A DNA stretch of 64,000 bases, taken from NCBI GenBank assembly GCA_027073495.1, contig JALSVQ010000192.1, forward strand, positions 1 to 64,000, given 5' to 3'. The translations under genes and the position numbers were made by a program. Source of the stretch: Flavobacteriaceae bacterium (GTDB lineage: Bacteria; Bacteroidota; Bacteroidia; Flavobacteriales; Flavobacteriaceae). How positions within the stretch are numbered: the stretch's first letter is position 1; each line of letters starts with the position of its first letter. The notes under the pieces were generated by a model. It was given only the letters and a program-made list of their open reading frames with translations. It did no database searches and was not told the DNA's origin. Positions 8,527-14,821 of the stretch are shown here, piece by piece.

Positions 8527-9480
8527 TTATTTTCTTTTTAGAACTTCTTTTACAGCTATAACGATATCAGTATCTTTTATATTGTATTTTTGCATTAACT
8601 GCTCTGGAGTTCCAGATTCACCAAAGGTGTCATTTACAGCCACAAACTCTTGTGGAGTAGGGCTTGTAGTAGCCAGTTCTCTAGCAATACTTTCGCCAAG
8701 TCCACCAAGTTTATTGTGTTCTTCGCAAGTAACAATGCATCCTGTTTTTTGAACTGATTTTAGTATAGCAGGTACATCAAGCGGTTTGATAGTATGTATA
8801 TTTATGACTTCTGCGCTAATACCTTCTTTATCTAAAGTTTTTGCAGCCTCTAGTGCTTCCCAAACCATATGCCCTGTGGCAACTATAGTTACATCTTTAC
8901 CTTCTTGGAAAGTTACTGCTTTACCAATTTCAAATTTCTGATTGGCAGGAGTGAATACTGGTATTTTTGGTCTTCCAAAACGCAAGTAAACAGGACCTTT
9001 ATATTCAGCAATAGCTAATGTTGCAGCCTTGGTCTGATTGTAATCACAAGGGTTAATGACCACCATTCCGGGGAGCATTTTCATCATACCAATATCTTCT
9101 AAGGTTTGATGTGTAGCACCATCTTCTCCAAGTGTTAGTCCTGCGTGCGAAGCACATATTTTAACATTTTTTCCTGAATACGCTATGGCTTGACGTATTT
9201 GATCGTAAACACGAGCTGTTGAGAAATTGGCAAAAGTTCCTGTAAATGGTATTTTACCTCCAATGGTAAGTCCTGCAGCAACGCCCATCATATTGGCTTC
9301 TGCAATTCCCATTTGAAAAAAGCGTTCTGGATGATTCTTTTTGAAATCACCCATTTTTAATGAACCTGTAAGGTCAGCGGTAAGTGCCACTACGTTTTCA
9401 TTGGTTTTTCCGAGTTGAGTTAAGGCATCGCCAAAACCAGAACGCGTGTCTTTTTTTTCGGTATATGTATATGTTTTCAT
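8527..9480 (-). CDS. Transketolase C-terminal subunit
   Basis: 317 aa; TRSGFGDALTQLGKTNENVVALTADLTGS..., pyrimidine-binding and C-terminal transketolase domains. Confidence 0.9.
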   Translation of the reverse strand: MKTYTYTEKKDTRSGFGDALTQLGKTNENVVALTADLTGSLKMGDFKKNHPERFFQMGIAEANMMGVAAGLTIGGKIPFTGTFANFSTARVYDQIRQAIAYSGKNVKICASHAGLTLGEDGATHQTLEDIGMMKMLPGMVVINPCDYNQTKAATLAIAEYKGPVYLRFGRPKIPVFTPANQKFEIGKAVTFQEGKDVTIVATGHMVWEALEAAKTLDKEGISAEVINIHTIKPLDVPAILKSVQKTGCIVTCEEHNKLGGLGESIARELATTSPTPQEFVAVNDTFGESGTPEQLMQKYNIKDTDIVIAVKEVLKRK

Positions 9481-9487
9481 CTGCTTT

Positions 9488-10336
9488 CTAATAATCGTTT
9501 AATGTTTCTGGATTTTGTGCTAATGCAGCTTCCAATTGTTCATCTGATGGTGCTTTTCCATGCCACGCATGTGTTCCCATCATAAAGTCAATGCCATTTC
9601 CCATTTGCGTATGCATAATAATACAGACAGGCTTTCCTTTTCCTGTTTTTACTTTGGCTTGAGTCAAACCTTCTAAAACAGATGCGATATCATTTCCTTT
9701 TGTTACTTCTATAACATCCCAACCAAATGCAGTGAACTTAGCTTTCAAATCGCCCATAGGAAGTACTTCGTCTAAGTCGCCATCTATTTGTTTGTGATTG
9801 TAGTCTATAGTTGCAATAAGATTATCTACTTTGTTTCCTGCGGCATAAAGTATCGCTTCCCAATTTTGTCCTTCTTGCAGTTCGCCATCTCCACTTAATG
9901 TGTAAACGAGATGCGAATCACTATTCATTTTTTTGGCTAAAGCAGCTCCAATTGCTACACTTAACCCTTGACCTAATGAACCCGAAGCAATACGAATGCC
10001 TGGAAGTCCCTCGTGTGTGGTTGGATGACCTTGCAATCTTGAATTGAGCAATCTAAATGTATTCAATTCTTCTACAGGAAAATAGCCACTACGAGCCAAA
10101 ATACTATAATATACAGGAGAAATATGACCGTTTGACAAAAAGAATAGGTCTTCATTGTTTCCATCCATAGTAAAATGCTTCGGATTGTAGTCCATTACTT
10201 CTTGAAAAAGACTTGCAAAAAACTCCACTGTTCCTAGTGATCCTCCAGGATGTCCTGACTGTACTTTATGTACCATGCGTACAATATCACGGCGCATTTG
10301 GATGCTTAATTGTTCTAAATTCTTAATTTTTGTCAT
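9488..10336 (-). CDS. Transketolase N-terminal subunit
   Basis: TPP domain GHPGGSLGTVEFFASLF, SGDGELQEGQNWEA. The ORF-track start (10396) is trimmed to MTKIKNLEQ at 10336; the longer start runs into the upstream terminator region. Confidence 0.88.
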   Translation of the reverse strand: MTKIKNLEQLSIQMRRDIVRMVHKVQSGHPGGSLGTVEFFASLFQEVMDYNPKHFTMDGNNEDLFFLSNGHISPVYYSILARSGYFPVEELNTFRLLNSRLQGHPTTHEGLPGIRIASGSLGQGLSVAIGAALAKKMNSDSHLVYTLSGDGELQEGQNWEAILYAAGNKVDNLIATIDYNHKQIDGDLDEVLPMGDLKAKFTAFGWDVIEVTKGNDIASVLEGLTQAKVKTGKGKPVCIIMHTQMGNGIDFMMGTHAWHGKAPSDEQLEAALAQNPETLNDY

Positions 10337-10402
10337 AAATATTCTATTTGTTACAAAAGTACTTAAAAAAAATGTAGTTCTATTTATTAATTGCACAAAA
10401 AA

Positions 10403-10451: not shown

Positions 10452-10814
10452 CTATTTTTGAGCTTTCAAATATTTTTTGAATTGCTTTTTTGAAAGAATC
10501 TCTTTCAGTTTTCCTTGGTAATTCATTTTGTCTTTAACAGCAGCTGTAATTGTAGCGATATCTGCTGGAGCAAATGATTCTTTTCCATCCATTTCTGCTA
10601 CAACCAATTGTTTTTGGATAGCGTAACCAACTACATTGTTCCACTTAGCTAGTTTAGTAGTTTGTTCTTCATCAAGTTTAACGGTACTTGCTATTTGTTT
10701 TGTTGCTGTTTTGATAAATCCTTTAACATCAAATGTTTCTGAAGTTACTTTTGCAGTTTGTGCTTGTAATGCAAATGTCAATATTAATGCAAAAACGGTG
10801 ATAATTCTTTTCAT
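10452..10814 (-). CDS. Small secreted hypothetical protein
   Basis: MKRIITVFALILTFALQAQ signal peptide; the track start 10850 is probably 12 codons too early. Confidence 0.65.
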   Translation of the reverse strand: MKRIITVFALILTFALQAQTAKVTSETFDVKGFIKTATKQIASTVKLDEEQTTKLAKWNNVVGYAIQKQLVVAEMDGKESFAPADIATITAAVKDKMNYQGKLKEILSKKQFKKYLKAQK

Positions 10815-10943
10815 CTTATTTTTATTTATTTGTTTAAATTCAAGGTTCAATTTTAAGAATTTTTTTTTAGTTGTGCAACTAAATAATTACTTAATAAAAA
10901 TAAATTTTAGTGCTAATTAATTTGTTGTTTCATATAATTATTA

Positions 10944-10967
10944 TAACTTTGCATTTCAAAGTACTTT
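10944..10967 (+). promoter_or_regulatory. Promoter -7 box TAACTTTG overlapping inverted repeat ctttg-cattt-caaag and palindrome aaagtacttt
   Basis: Direct reading; copy 1 of a two-site set (see 11913-11936). Confidence 0.55.
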
Positions 10968-10973
10968 TACAAA

Positions 10974-11585
10974 ATGGAAGAAAAAGATTATTTACAAGAC
11001 CTATCAGCTATTAAAAATATGATGAATCGTTCGTCACGATTTATTAGTTTAAGTGGACTTTCGGGTATTATGGCAGGTAGTTATGCGCTTATTGGTGCTT
11101 GGTTTGCTAGAAGCATATTGTATAAATTTAAACACGGTATAAGCTATCGTCAAATTAATTATTTGACCAACGAGCTTTGGTTTATTGCTATTGCTGTAGC
11201 GGTATTTTCTATACTTACGGCCTATGTTTTAACCAGTAAACGTGCTAAAAAAAATGGTGAAGAAATTTGGGATGTTTCGACTAAAAATTTAGTAGTTGCT
11301 TTTTTAATTCCTTTGCTTACAGGTGGTGTTTTTGGACTTTTGCTATTGAATCAACGCTATTTTGGACTGATAGCACCGATAACTTTATTGTTTTATGGTT
11401 TGGCATTGATTAATGCGAGCAAATATACCTTGGGAACGGTTAAATATTTAGGGTTTTCAGAGCTTATTTTAGGTTTATTGTCAACCTACTTTGTAGGTTA
11501 TGGCCTGCTATTCTGGACACTAGGTTTTGGTGTAATGCATATTGTTTATGGTACAATAATGTACTTCCGTTATGAAAAAAAATAA
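10974..11585 (+). CDS. Multi-pass membrane protein of unknown function
   Basis: 203 aa with several hydrophobic helices; 7-nt gap to the regulator gene. Confidence 0.75.
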   Translation: MEEKDYLQDLSAIKNMMNRSSRFISLSGLSGIMAGSYALIGAWFARSILYKFKHGISYRQINYLTNELWFIAIAVAVFSILTAYVLTSKRAKKNGEEIWDVSTKNLVVAFLIPLLTGGVFGLLLLNQRYFGLIAPITLLFYGLALINASKYTLGTVKYLGFSELILGLLSTYFVGYGLLFWTLGFGVMHIVYGTIMYFRYEKK

Positions 11586-11592
11586 ATGATAG

Positions 11593-11895
11593 GTGAAAAC
11601 TATTTTACAAAATATTAATAAGGTTTTTGACAATCGGGTGCGTTTGGGCATTATGAGTGCTTTGATGGTCAATGAAAATCTCGATTTTAAATCGCTTAAA
11701 AAATTATTAGGTGTAACGGATGGTAATTTGGCAAGTCACATCAAATCGTTGCAAAAAGCGGGTTATATCGTGGTGATGAAACAATTTATTGCCAATAAAC
11801 CCAATACCAGTTATCAGATTTCGCTAGAAGGGCGTAATGCCTTCAAAAAACATATTGATGCATTGGAGCGTTTAATACAATTACGAAACAAATAA
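11593..11895 (+). CDS. Winged-helix DNA-binding transcriptional regulator (MarR/ArsR-like)
   Basis: GTG start; VRLGIMSALMVNENLDFKSLKKLLGVTDGNLASHIKSLQKAGYIVVMKQFIANKPNTSYQISLEGRNAFKKHIDAL. Confidence 0.85.
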   Translation: MKTILQNINKVFDNRVRLGIMSALMVNENLDFKSLKKLLGVTDGNLASHIKSLQKAGYIVVMKQFIANKPNTSYQISLEGRNAFKKHIDALERLIQLRNK

Positions 11896-11912
11896 CATTT
11901 TTTTTAACTTAT

Positions 11913-11936
11913 TAACTTTGAAATGCAAAGTACTTT
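11913..11936 (+). promoter_or_regulatory. Promoter -7 box TAACTTTG overlapping inverted repeat ctttg-aaatg-caaag and palindrome aaagtacttt
   Basis: Its 15-nt inverted repeat is the exact reverse complement of the one at 10947-10961. Confidence 0.55.
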
Positions 11937-11949
11937 TAATTACAATATA

Positions 11950-12426
11950 ATGAATATACGAACAACACTTTTGGTCTGGCTATATGATATATCAAAAAAA
12001 GCTTATGCGCAATATTTTAAAAAACAAGCACCTTGGAAAGCGACGCGGCAATCGTTGTTGTTTTATCCAAAAGACTCTTTGGCTTATGCTTTGGGAATGT
12101 TTTTGACCAAAAACAATTTCACTATGGAAGCCAAGCTCGAATCGCACGATGTTTTTCATACCATCATTGGTTTTGATACCAAAATACAAGATGAACTAGC
12201 CATGCAATATTTCTTAATGGGCAATGGCAAGCGTAGCGTTTATATGTTTTTAGTACTTATTTCAGGCTCATTTTTGTTTCCAGAGCATTGGATTTATTTT
12301 AAAAAATCATACCGAAAAGGTAAAGAAACACCGCCTTTTTATCATTGGAATTTTGAGAAAATGCTTGCTATTTCTTTACAGAAAATTCAACAAATTTTAT
12401 TTAATCAATCAATTTATACATTATAA
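11950..12426 (+). CDS. Coq4-like protein (HDxxH-x11-E motif)
   Basis: MNIRTTLLVWLYDISKK...; SHDVFHTIIGFDTKIQDELAMQYF matches HDxxH-x11-E of the COQ4 family. The track start (11923) lies inside the promoter/operator, so 11950 is preferred. Confidence 0.6.
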   Translation: MNIRTTLLVWLYDISKKAYAQYFKKQAPWKATRQSLLFYPKDSLAYALGMFLTKNNFTMEAKLESHDVFHTIIGFDTKIQDELAMQYFLMGNGKRSVYMFLVLISGSFLFPEHWIYFKKSYRKGKETPPFYHWNFEKMLAISLQKIQQILFNQSIYTL

Positions 12427-12428
12427 TT

Positions 12429-13817
12429 ATGAAAACTATTTTAACAACTAGTACAGCGCTAATTTTTAGTGTTTTATTTTACAAACAAGCATTAGGACTC
12501 AATGTATTTCTATTTGCTGTCTTACTCGTTATTTTTGTTTTATATCAAAATAAAAATCGTTTTAACAAGCTCCAAATCTTAAATGGTATGCTCCTTATCA
12601 TTATGGCTTTTTTAGGTATTTTGTATCAAAATGCATTAACGCTCTATGCCATATTTTTTAGCTTATTGCTATTTGTAGGAAGCATTTCGAATGTACGTTC
12701 TAGTTCGTTTGTAATGCAACTTAACGGTTTGCTCTCGATTATATCAGGAGTACTAATGCATCGTTTTGAACAAGTAAAAATGCCTAAAGAAAACACCAAT
12801 AACAATGCGCTAAATTATGCTTATTGGTTTAAACTCTTGGCTGTTATCTCGGTTGTTTTATTTGTGTTCATAATGCTTTATCGTAATGCAAACCCTATTA
12901 TTAATGCCTTTATATCAAAAATAAATTTTGATTTCATCAGTTTACAATGGTTGTTTTTTACTGCCGCAGCTTATTATTTTATTAATAATATGGTTTATCC
13001 AACGGTCATAGAGCCGCTTACGAGTAAAGATTTGAACGCTTCTAATGCACTTGATTCGTCATCAAATAAAGTGCTTTCTGAACAAAAAACACACGAAAAA
13101 AACCAAATGGGAGTAGTGCTATTTTCATTATTAAATGTATTAATAGTATTTGTATTAGCTACAGACGTTATTTTTATGTTTCGTGATAAACAATTGAATG
13201 CAATGCAGCTTTCCGAACAGTTGCACCAAGGTGTTAATGCCTTAATTGTAGCCATAGTGAGCGCTATTTTTTTGATTTTGTACTTTTTTCAAGGCAATCT
13301 CAATTTTTATAAAGCCAATAGACGACTCAAACAAGTCACTTATCTTTGGATTGTACTTAACCTGTTTTTAGCAATGAGTACGTGGTACAAAAATTATCAA
13401 TATGTAAGTTCTTTTGGCTTAACATATAAGCGTATCGGTGTTTTTGTATATCTTATTTTGGCGCTTTCTGGGCTTATTTTTACATTTATTAAAGTCTATA
13501 AAATTAGAAACTTTTGGTTTCTTATGCGCAATACTATACGACAAGCTTTTATAGTTCTTTTTATCAGCGCATTAGTCCCTTGGGATACTTTAATTACACA
13601 TTATAATACCAAGTTTATTACAAATTTTGATATCAATTATCTGCTTAATCTAAACCATAATAAAGCGGTTTTATATGCTATAAAAGATAAATATCAATTT
13701 GAAAGGGATACTTACAATGTTATTGTAAAAAATTACAATGACTATAAAGCGGAGCAAGCCAAAAACACTTGGCAAGCTTATTCTTGGTATAATGTTAAGA
13801 CACAATTCAATGATTAA
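12429..13817 (+). CDS. DUF4173-like (DUF4153-family) membrane protein
   Basis: 462 aa polytopic; YQYVSSFGLTYKRIGVFVYLILALSGLIFTFIKVYKIRNFWFLMR resembles the DUF4173 C-terminal signature. Confidence 0.7.
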   Translation: MKTILTTSTALIFSVLFYKQALGLNVFLFAVLLVIFVLYQNKNRFNKLQILNGMLLIIMAFLGILYQNALTLYAIFFSLLLFVGSISNVRSSSFVMQLNGLLSIISGVLMHRFEQVKMPKENTNNNALNYAYWFKLLAVISVVLFVFIMLYRNANPIINAFISKINFDFISLQWLFFTAAAYYFINNMVYPTVIEPLTSKDLNASNALDSSSNKVLSEQKTHEKNQMGVVLFSLLNVLIVFVLATDVIFMFRDKQLNAMQLSEQLHQGVNALIVAIVSAIFLILYFFQGNLNFYKANRRLKQVTYLWIVLNLFLAMSTWYKNYQYVSSFGLTYKRIGVFVYLILALSGLIFTFIKVYKIRNFWFLMRNTIRQAFIVLFISALVPWDTLITHYNTKFITNFDINYLLNLNHNKAVLYAIKDKYQFERDTYNVIVKNYNDYKAEQAKNTWQAYSWYNVKTQFND

Positions 13818-14208
13818 AGCGATTTCTTCTACCGCACTCCGCTCAAGTTTAATGGCGTCGGGCTTATTAATATTGATAATAATGATGAATGAAACAGTTG
13901 GCGTTTATATTGTTTTGATAGCTTTTATCAGTTTTATTATCACTTTTTTCATAGCGCTGTTTATGATAATTGCCACTGTCGTTCCTTTGATACTATATGG
14001 TTTGCTTATTCAGCATAGTACTATAGAAACTGTTTTTAAGCAATTCTTCCCTTATTATGCATTATTTTCTTTTGGATTCTGTGTCTATTTGTCTTTAAGC
14101 GATGATGAAGCATATTACATTTTTGTTCCTGCATTTTTCACTTCCATAATGGCTTGGTTATGGCTTTTCAAATCACTTCTAAATACTAATTATGAAAACA
14201 AATACTAA
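13810..14208 (+). CDS. Small multi-pass membrane protein
   Basis: Hydrophobic; ATG at 13810 overlaps the upstream stop (atgattaa). Track start 13738 is inside the previous CDS. Confidence 0.6.
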   Translation: MIKAISSTALRSSLMASGLLILIIMMNETVGVYIVLIAFISFIITFFIALFMIIATVVPLILYGLLIQHSTIETVFKQFFPYYALFSFGFCVYLSLSDDEAYYIFVPAFFTSIMAWLWLFKSLLNTNYENKY

Positions 14209-14821
14209 AATACTAGTACTAACAGTCTTGAGTTTCTTACTTTTAAAATATAGAATTCATACAACACAAAGTTATTTTTATCTCTTTCTGATATGGAACT
14301 TGTTTTTGGCATTTGTGCCATTAGGATTAAGCACGTATTTGTCTCAAAATATAAATAAATATAGTGTGTTCGCCATTTTTCCTATTTGGTTGCTCTTTTT
14401 GCCTAACGCACCTTATATTTTTACAGATTTAATACATTTGGGAAAATACAGTAAAATGGGGTTTTGGTATGATTTAGTACTCATTAGCAGTTTTGCAAGC
14501 ACAGGAATGTTAGCATATTTTATTACAGTAAAGCAAATGTATGTTATTTTAAAACAGTATTTAAAACCCAAAAACGTACAGTTGCTATTTGTTTTTATAG
14601 CATTTCTCAATGGTTTTGGCATTTATTTAGGGCGTTTCTTACGTTGGAATTCTTGGGATATTATTCATAAACCAAATAAGTTGTTTTTGGAAATATTTAC
14701 ACGCTTAAGGCATCCAATTGTACATATTAATTCGTGGTTATTTACTGTAGCATTTGGTAGTATTCTTGCTCTAGGTTTTTGGAGAATAGTGATTCAGGAA
14801 TTGAAAAACGAGAAACTATAA
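14192..14821 (+). CDS. DUF1361 domain-containing membrane protein
   Basis: WLLFLPNAPYIFTDLIHLGK ... GFGIYLGRFLRWNSWDII signature. Confidence 0.85.
   Translation: MKTNTKILVLTVLSFLLLKYRIHTTQSYFYLFLIWNLFLAFVPLGLSTYLSQNINKYSVFAIFPIWLLFLPNAPYIFTDLIHLGKYSKMGFWYDLVLISSFASTGMLAYFITVKQMYVILKQYLKPKNVQLLFVFIAFLNGFGIYLGRFLRWNSWDIIHKPNKLFLEIFTRLRHPIVHINSWLFTVAFGSILALGFWRIVIQELKNEKL

Follow-up and report, generated by a model that had tools for sequence, protein, structure and literature searches.

Small winged-helix proteins are commonly autoregulatory, and both the PadR-like proteins and PH1061 of Pyrococcus horikoshii are small dimeric regulators, the PadR-like ones being repressors that are often encoded beside membrane-protein genes; we know of no operator or regulon for PH1061. 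On the side of the target genes, the CreBC two-component system of Proteobacteria controls creD (PMC4689548), and in Stenotrophomonas maltophilia the integrity of the envelope is compromised when CreD is lost (PMC4689548). Bacteroidota promoters follow the -33/-7 consensus TTTG/TANNTTTG (PMC6847099), in which TAnnTTTG is the -7 box and the -33 TTTG had been described earlier (PMC6847099, PMC9723704). In Flavobacterium johnsoniae this box spans -12 to -5 (PMC6847099), and the SM5 promoter box of Flavobacterium psychrophilum reads TAnnTTGY (PMC9723704). Here we consider two short elements that accompany a gene for an HTH_34 winged-helix protein in the window, by which we mean the whole 64-kb stretch of Flavobacteriaceae DNA that was analysed. 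We think it probable that this protein represses its own operon together with the operon that follows by blocking the promoters of both.

The original prediction described two 15-mers that are exact reverse complements of each other, and reading the sequence places them exactly, CTTTGCATTTCAAAG at 10947-10961 and CTTTGAAATGCAAAG at 11916-11930. As it also described, both overlap a promoter box, TAACTTTG at 10944-10951 and at 11913-11920, and both continue with TACTTTTA to give CAAAGTACTTT with its AAAGTACTTT palindrome; TAA precedes both 15-mers, and CAAAGTACTTTTA continues both. The reverse complementarity itself is real as sequence but turns out to be incidental, since the arms are palindromic and invariant and only the 5-nt spacers, here CATTT and AAATG, decide it. 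Reverse-complementary spacers were found at 9 of 73 loci as compared to 6.0 expected by shuffling (P = 0.12), and we rejected the relation as a meaningful feature. The two sites are better described as same-direction copies, that is direct repeats, of one oriented element with the consensus T(T/A)ACTTTG-N5-CAAAGTACTTT, which at each of two promoters covers both the -7 box and the predicted start site. The first putative operator/promoter, TAACTTTG-CATTT-CAAAGTACTTTTA, occupies 10944..10969 and the second, TAACTTTG-AAATG-CAAAGTACTTTTA, occupies 11913..11938, both on the + strand.

The window has two exact copies of the 21-nt core of the element, CTTTGN5CAAAGTACTTT, as compared to none in any of 100 shuffles, and within the source assembly (2.35-Mb, 88.6% complete) the exact 21-mer is found only at these two sites. 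Two one-mismatch matches elsewhere in the same genome both lie within coding sequence, and looser or partial matches, considered as further operators, were set aside as falling mostly inside genes; a partial site 157 nt upstream of an asparagine-synthetase-like gene was judged to be a chance match.

Site 1 stands before a gene for an inner-membrane protein of 203 aa (10974..11585, + strand), referred to below as the partner, and its 21-mer ends 6 nt before the partner ATG. After 7 nt follows the regulator gene (11593..11895, + strand, GTG start), then site 2, and then, all on the + strand, genes for a Coq4-like protein (11950..12426; Pfam PF05019, E 2.6e-05), which is the first of the second operon, a DUF4153 membrane protein (12429..13817; PF13687, E 1.1e-31), a small membrane protein without a Pfam match (13738..14208, an ORF whose listed start overlaps the preceding gene) and a DUF1361 membrane protein that is likely the last of the operon (14192..14821; PF07099, E 6.3e-41). 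This gene order bears out the earlier placement of the two sites before a membrane-protein/regulator operon and a Coq4-like operon. The operon of the regulator carries site 1 in its own promoter, an autoregulatory arrangement common to most of the 80 named loci introduced below, and in the ORF list the HTH_34 gene is the only regulator gene encoded beside the sites. Further upstream, at 8527-10396 on the - strand, two adjoining ORFs resemble by eye the halves of a split transketolase.

With regard to the promoters, the earlier description of the elements as operators needs amending: they stand as putative operators, but the left arm serves at the same time as the -7 box of the promoter, and TAACTTTG at both sites of the window is a perfect -7 box. 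Promoter 1 has both parts of a sigma-A promoter (TAnnTTTG with TTTG some 19-20 nt upstream), namely a candidate -33 TTTG at 10921-10924 on the + strand, placed 19 nt before TAACTTTG, and TTG is conserved at about that distance across loci. Promoter 2 has TAACTTTG without a clear -33 TTTG. Counting from the position of -5 at the end of the -7 box in F. johnsoniae (PMC6847099), we predict transcription starts on the + strand at 10956 for the membrane gene/regulator operon and at 11925 for the Coq4-like operon; these would be the last base of each spacer, and the element would then run from about -12 to +12. The listed start of the Coq4-like ORF, ATG 11923, lies inside operator 2 and 5' of the predicted transcription start, and ATG 11950 is in the same frame; given a start at 11925, ATG 11950 is the likelier beginning of the gene.

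A tract of the form A-T8-A lies upstream of site 2 (11897..11906, + strand) and is conserved in site-2 promoters, with at least five T in 73 of 76 site-2 loci and exactly seven in 47. Taking the window and loci L100-L179, a near-invariant A-T7-A stands 8-16 nt upstream of site-2 operators, at the place where site-1 promoters have the -33 TTG, and because the tract replaces the usual -33 TTG, promoter 2 may be something other than an ordinary sigma-A promoter. The tract was rejected as the sign of a more general promoter class, the pattern ATTTTTTT-N5-9-TAnnTTTG giving 14 matches genome-wide as against 13 for the reversed control, which is no enrichment. It was likewise rejected as an intrinsic terminator, the upstream folding being barely below that of shuffles (mean z -0.7) and no consistent hairpin preceding the tract. 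We also note that site 1 in most relatives (for instance L101 and L120) has the sequence TACTTTGY, a better match to SM5 than to the sigma-A box; this is true of neither the window nor site 2.

If the sites are the operators of the HTH_34 protein, repression rather than activation is strongly indicated as its mode of action. A dimer of the protein would bind the inverted repeat TACTTTG-N5-CAAAGTA (AACTTTG-N5-CAAAGTA in the window), and binding would probably be extended by a third half-site in CAAAGTACTTT. Because the site runs from the -7 box to about +12, the bound dimer would be expected to block RNA polymerase, and both sites are very probably where the regulator sits to shut both promoters. 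The regulator would in this way repress its own operon, of partner and regulator, and the adjacent envelope operon, until an envelope signal, perhaps sensed through the six-helix partner with its N-terminal segment, lifts the repression and both operons are expressed together. Alternatively, the regulator bound at these sites might be an activator, or a dual regulator, that recruits polymerase to a poor promoter or remodels it there. Site 2 with its missing -33 TTG, and a -7 box whose second base is off consensus in most loci, do look like promoters in need of help; however, steric repressors classically bind where this element lies, over the -7 box and start site, the usual place of activators is further upstream, and the -33 TTTG of promoter 1 is good and its TAACTTTG in the window perfect, so that we consider activation unlikely.

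The repressor that we propose is a protein of 100 aa that matches Pfam PF13601 (HTH_34) with E 9.6e-30 and 103 bits (cut-off 27) over profile positions 1-80 of 80. It is the only HTH_34 protein found by a search of its genome, the same genome that has the two sites. Its AlphaFold2 model (pLDDT 92.6) consists of three helices, a beta hairpin and a C-terminal helix, and the sequence TDGN-x-x-SH is near-invariant in the presumed recognition helix. The best PDB matches of the model are winged-helix regulators, of PadR type and PH1061. PH1061 (PDB 1UB9) is the closest solved homologue, likewise a winged-helix protein of 100 aa, with 35% identity in the structure alignment and a phmmer E of 1.7e-10, although it is archaeal. 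The likeness to PadR-like regulators (TM-score 0.79 with Rv3488, 5ZI8, and 0.84 with the Bacteroides fragilis PadR-like protein 5H20) is one of fold alone, since the sequence family of the regulator is HTH_34 and thus differs from that of Rv3488, LmrR and 5H20; a Pfam search at E 0.001 gave no PadR domain, the only matches being HTH_34, HTH_24 and HTH_5.

The partner gene lies upstream of the regulator gene in all 80 named loci, either immediately before it or at a distance of up to about 1.4 kb. Its AlphaFold2 model (mean pLDDT 88) shows a conserved N-terminal helical segment, SSRF-I/L-SLSGLSGI, followed by six long helices; a Pfam search with the protein gave no match, and a fold search of the PDB with the model gave no significant one. 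From its co-transcription with the regulator and its conservation, we offer a role of the partner as the sensor as a tentative suggestion, somewhat short of an even chance.

The link between element and regulator was followed in two samples of genomes. In the first, of 251 genomes of the same family, where the motif was scored as an exact match and a regulator orthologue as a match with E below 1e-29, the motif was present in 120 genomes and the orthologue in 124; 119 of the 124 genomes with the orthologue had the motif as compared to 1 of the 127 without it (Fisher P 2e-64, ignoring phylogeny). Both were thus present in 119 genomes, the regulator by itself in five and the motif by itself in one. 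The single motif in a genome without the regulator (G166) falls within coding sequence and was rejected as an operator. The two regulator-only genomes that were read, out of the five, have, close to the regulator gene, sites that are altered at one or two positions (L061 and L072). In the second sample, of 396 genomes from across the phylum, where the regulator was called by profile search and the motif again by exact match, all 82 genomes with the motif had the regulator, and the presence of the motif tracked that of the gene over 17 families. A reversed-pattern control gave zero matches in every genome of both samples. The co-occurrence in either sample is given without correction for phylogeny. 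The original prediction had named occurrence of the motif at many unrelated promoters as evidence that would count against it; what we found was the motif in none of the 170 phylum genomes without the regulator.

This co-occurrence in the family and the phylum, the retention of the paired sites in most of the 80 named loci and the unlinked intergenic copies described below all support the earlier proposal of operators for the regulator encoded at 11593, and on this comparative evidence we are highly confident that the sites are such operators. Shared ancestry accounts in part for co-inheritance within one locus, and as the evidence is correlative, a different transcription factor with the same distribution, co-inherited with the locus, might instead bind the sites. 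We regard this as very unlikely, given that HTH_34 is the only regulator beside the sites, that autoregulation is common and that the motif follows this gene over so many families.

For the named loci, 80 were taken from GTDB genomes and sites were counted within two mismatches, some loci ending at contig borders. A site 1 stands before the membrane gene in 77 of them, a site 2 follows the regulator on its 3' side in 75, and both are present in 72. These loci come from Flavobacterium, Winogradskyella, Aquimarina, Marinoscillum, Xanthovirga and Proteiniphilum, among others, and from MAGs titled Saprospiraceae, Sphingobacteriales and Ignavibacteria. Among the aligned sites within 2 mismatches of the consensus (78 of site 1 and 76 of site 2), CTTTG and CAAAG are 100% conserved and TACTTT 92-100%, with spacer and flanks far less so; the element thus combines dyad symmetry with arms conserved across species, as befits an operator. 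A departure to GTTCTTT is shared by both sites in three loci as compared to 0.27 expected (P 0.0016), although these loci may not be independent, and both sites of L061 carry it as well. In a phylum genome of another family (L239), a diverged pair of membrane-protein and HTH_34 genes has the exact 21-mer 38 nt before the membrane gene, start to start.

The same alignments bear on two further readings. The element might be the promoter of an alternative sigma factor, with the regulator incidental to it, and TACTTTGY at site 1 in most relatives does fit the SM5 box (PMC9723704). At site 2, however, the position of the SM5 pyrimidine is mostly occupied by A, and the sequence in the window is AACTTTG; the element stays conserved and dyad-symmetric past the start site to about +12, and presence follows the HTH_34 protein, all of which leaves this reading a shade less credible still than that of another factor. 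An RNA hairpin in the 5' leader, serving as an attenuator or in translation control, is highly improbable: the arms could form a short stem, but the predicted start in the spacer means that only the right arm would be transcribed, and the arms are invariant rather than co-varying and the stem short and A/U-rich. An Rfam search over 10700-12200 gave no match at E up to 1.

To return to the HTH_34 protein as the repressor of these promoters, the strongest sign of a trans-acting factor is the set of sites that lie far from the regulator gene. Among 36 such unlinked sites that were read, 35 lie outside any long ORF, and at 29 the gene that follows belongs to a recurring group, the genes being grouped by Pfam on representatives only and by eye for the remainder. 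The genes that follow encode a small membrane protein that carries MQF-x-x-EV-x-W (12 sites), a YiiX-type C92 peptidase (6), a membrane protein of about 110 aa (4), Coq4-like, DoxX/MauE-like and DUF2809-like proteins (2 each), creD (1) and other genes (7). Where most other sites have membrane proteins, one unlinked exact motif (L236) precedes a gene resembling that for a B12-dependent radical SAM protein. That the two sites of the window might be the termini of a mobile element with the regulator gene as cargo, as a pair of related short repeats bracketing two genes could suggest, can be dismissed, as the sites have the same orientation, both lie in promoters, the locus is phylum-wide and single copies precede other genes elsewhere; the bracketed interval holds only the membrane protein and regulator genes and no transposase-like gene.

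Counting the first five ORFs after site 2 at 75 loci, creD (PF06123) forms the largest group with 54 ORFs, followed by the small membrane protein (38), Coq4-like (34), DUF1361 (33) and DUF2809 (20). The second operon usually carries creD in relatives, as compared to the Coq4-like, DUF4153 and DUF1361 genes here, and no creD match was found in the genome of the window itself. Setting one marginal match aside, CreD was found in 77 family genomes; the regulator is present in 71 of them, often with creD within the next few hundred bases, and the six creD genomes without a regulator orthologue lack the motif too. Some 53 family genomes have the regulator without CreD, so the target set appears to be fluid. 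The harm to the envelope that follows loss of CreD in Stenotrophomonas suggests an envelope role for the target group.

The principle of a local autorepressor operator is already known and such operators are ordinary; what appears to be new is the regulon itself. From Flavobacteriaceae to distant Bacteroidota families it is marked by one 21-bp signal that hardly varies, which joins creD and uncharacterised genes into a single co-regulated envelope group and provides predicted targets in hundreds of genomes for one 100-aa protein and one sequence. We know of no description of this regulon, and none was found by a literature search of open-access papers, a set that has most subscription journals outside it. 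We put at about even the chance that these loci represent a regulon for envelope homeostasis that spans the phylum Bacteroidota and has not been described before, one in which a two-gene signalling module of membrane sensor and HTH_34 repressor would control creD, Coq4-like, YiiX-type peptidase, DUF1361, DUF2809, DUF4153 and small membrane proteins, as a one-component counterpart of CreBC-creD.

The resemblance to CreBC would lie in the control of creD (PMC4689548); the locus differs in having a one-component winged-helix protein with a membrane partner, a different operator and several other envelope genes. It likewise resembles the Bacteroidota sigma-A promoter of -33 TTTG and -7 TAnnTTTG, whose -7 box coincides with the left operator arm (PMC6847099, PMC9723704), but that promoter consensus has neither the second invariant arm of the operator nor the third half-site beyond the start site.
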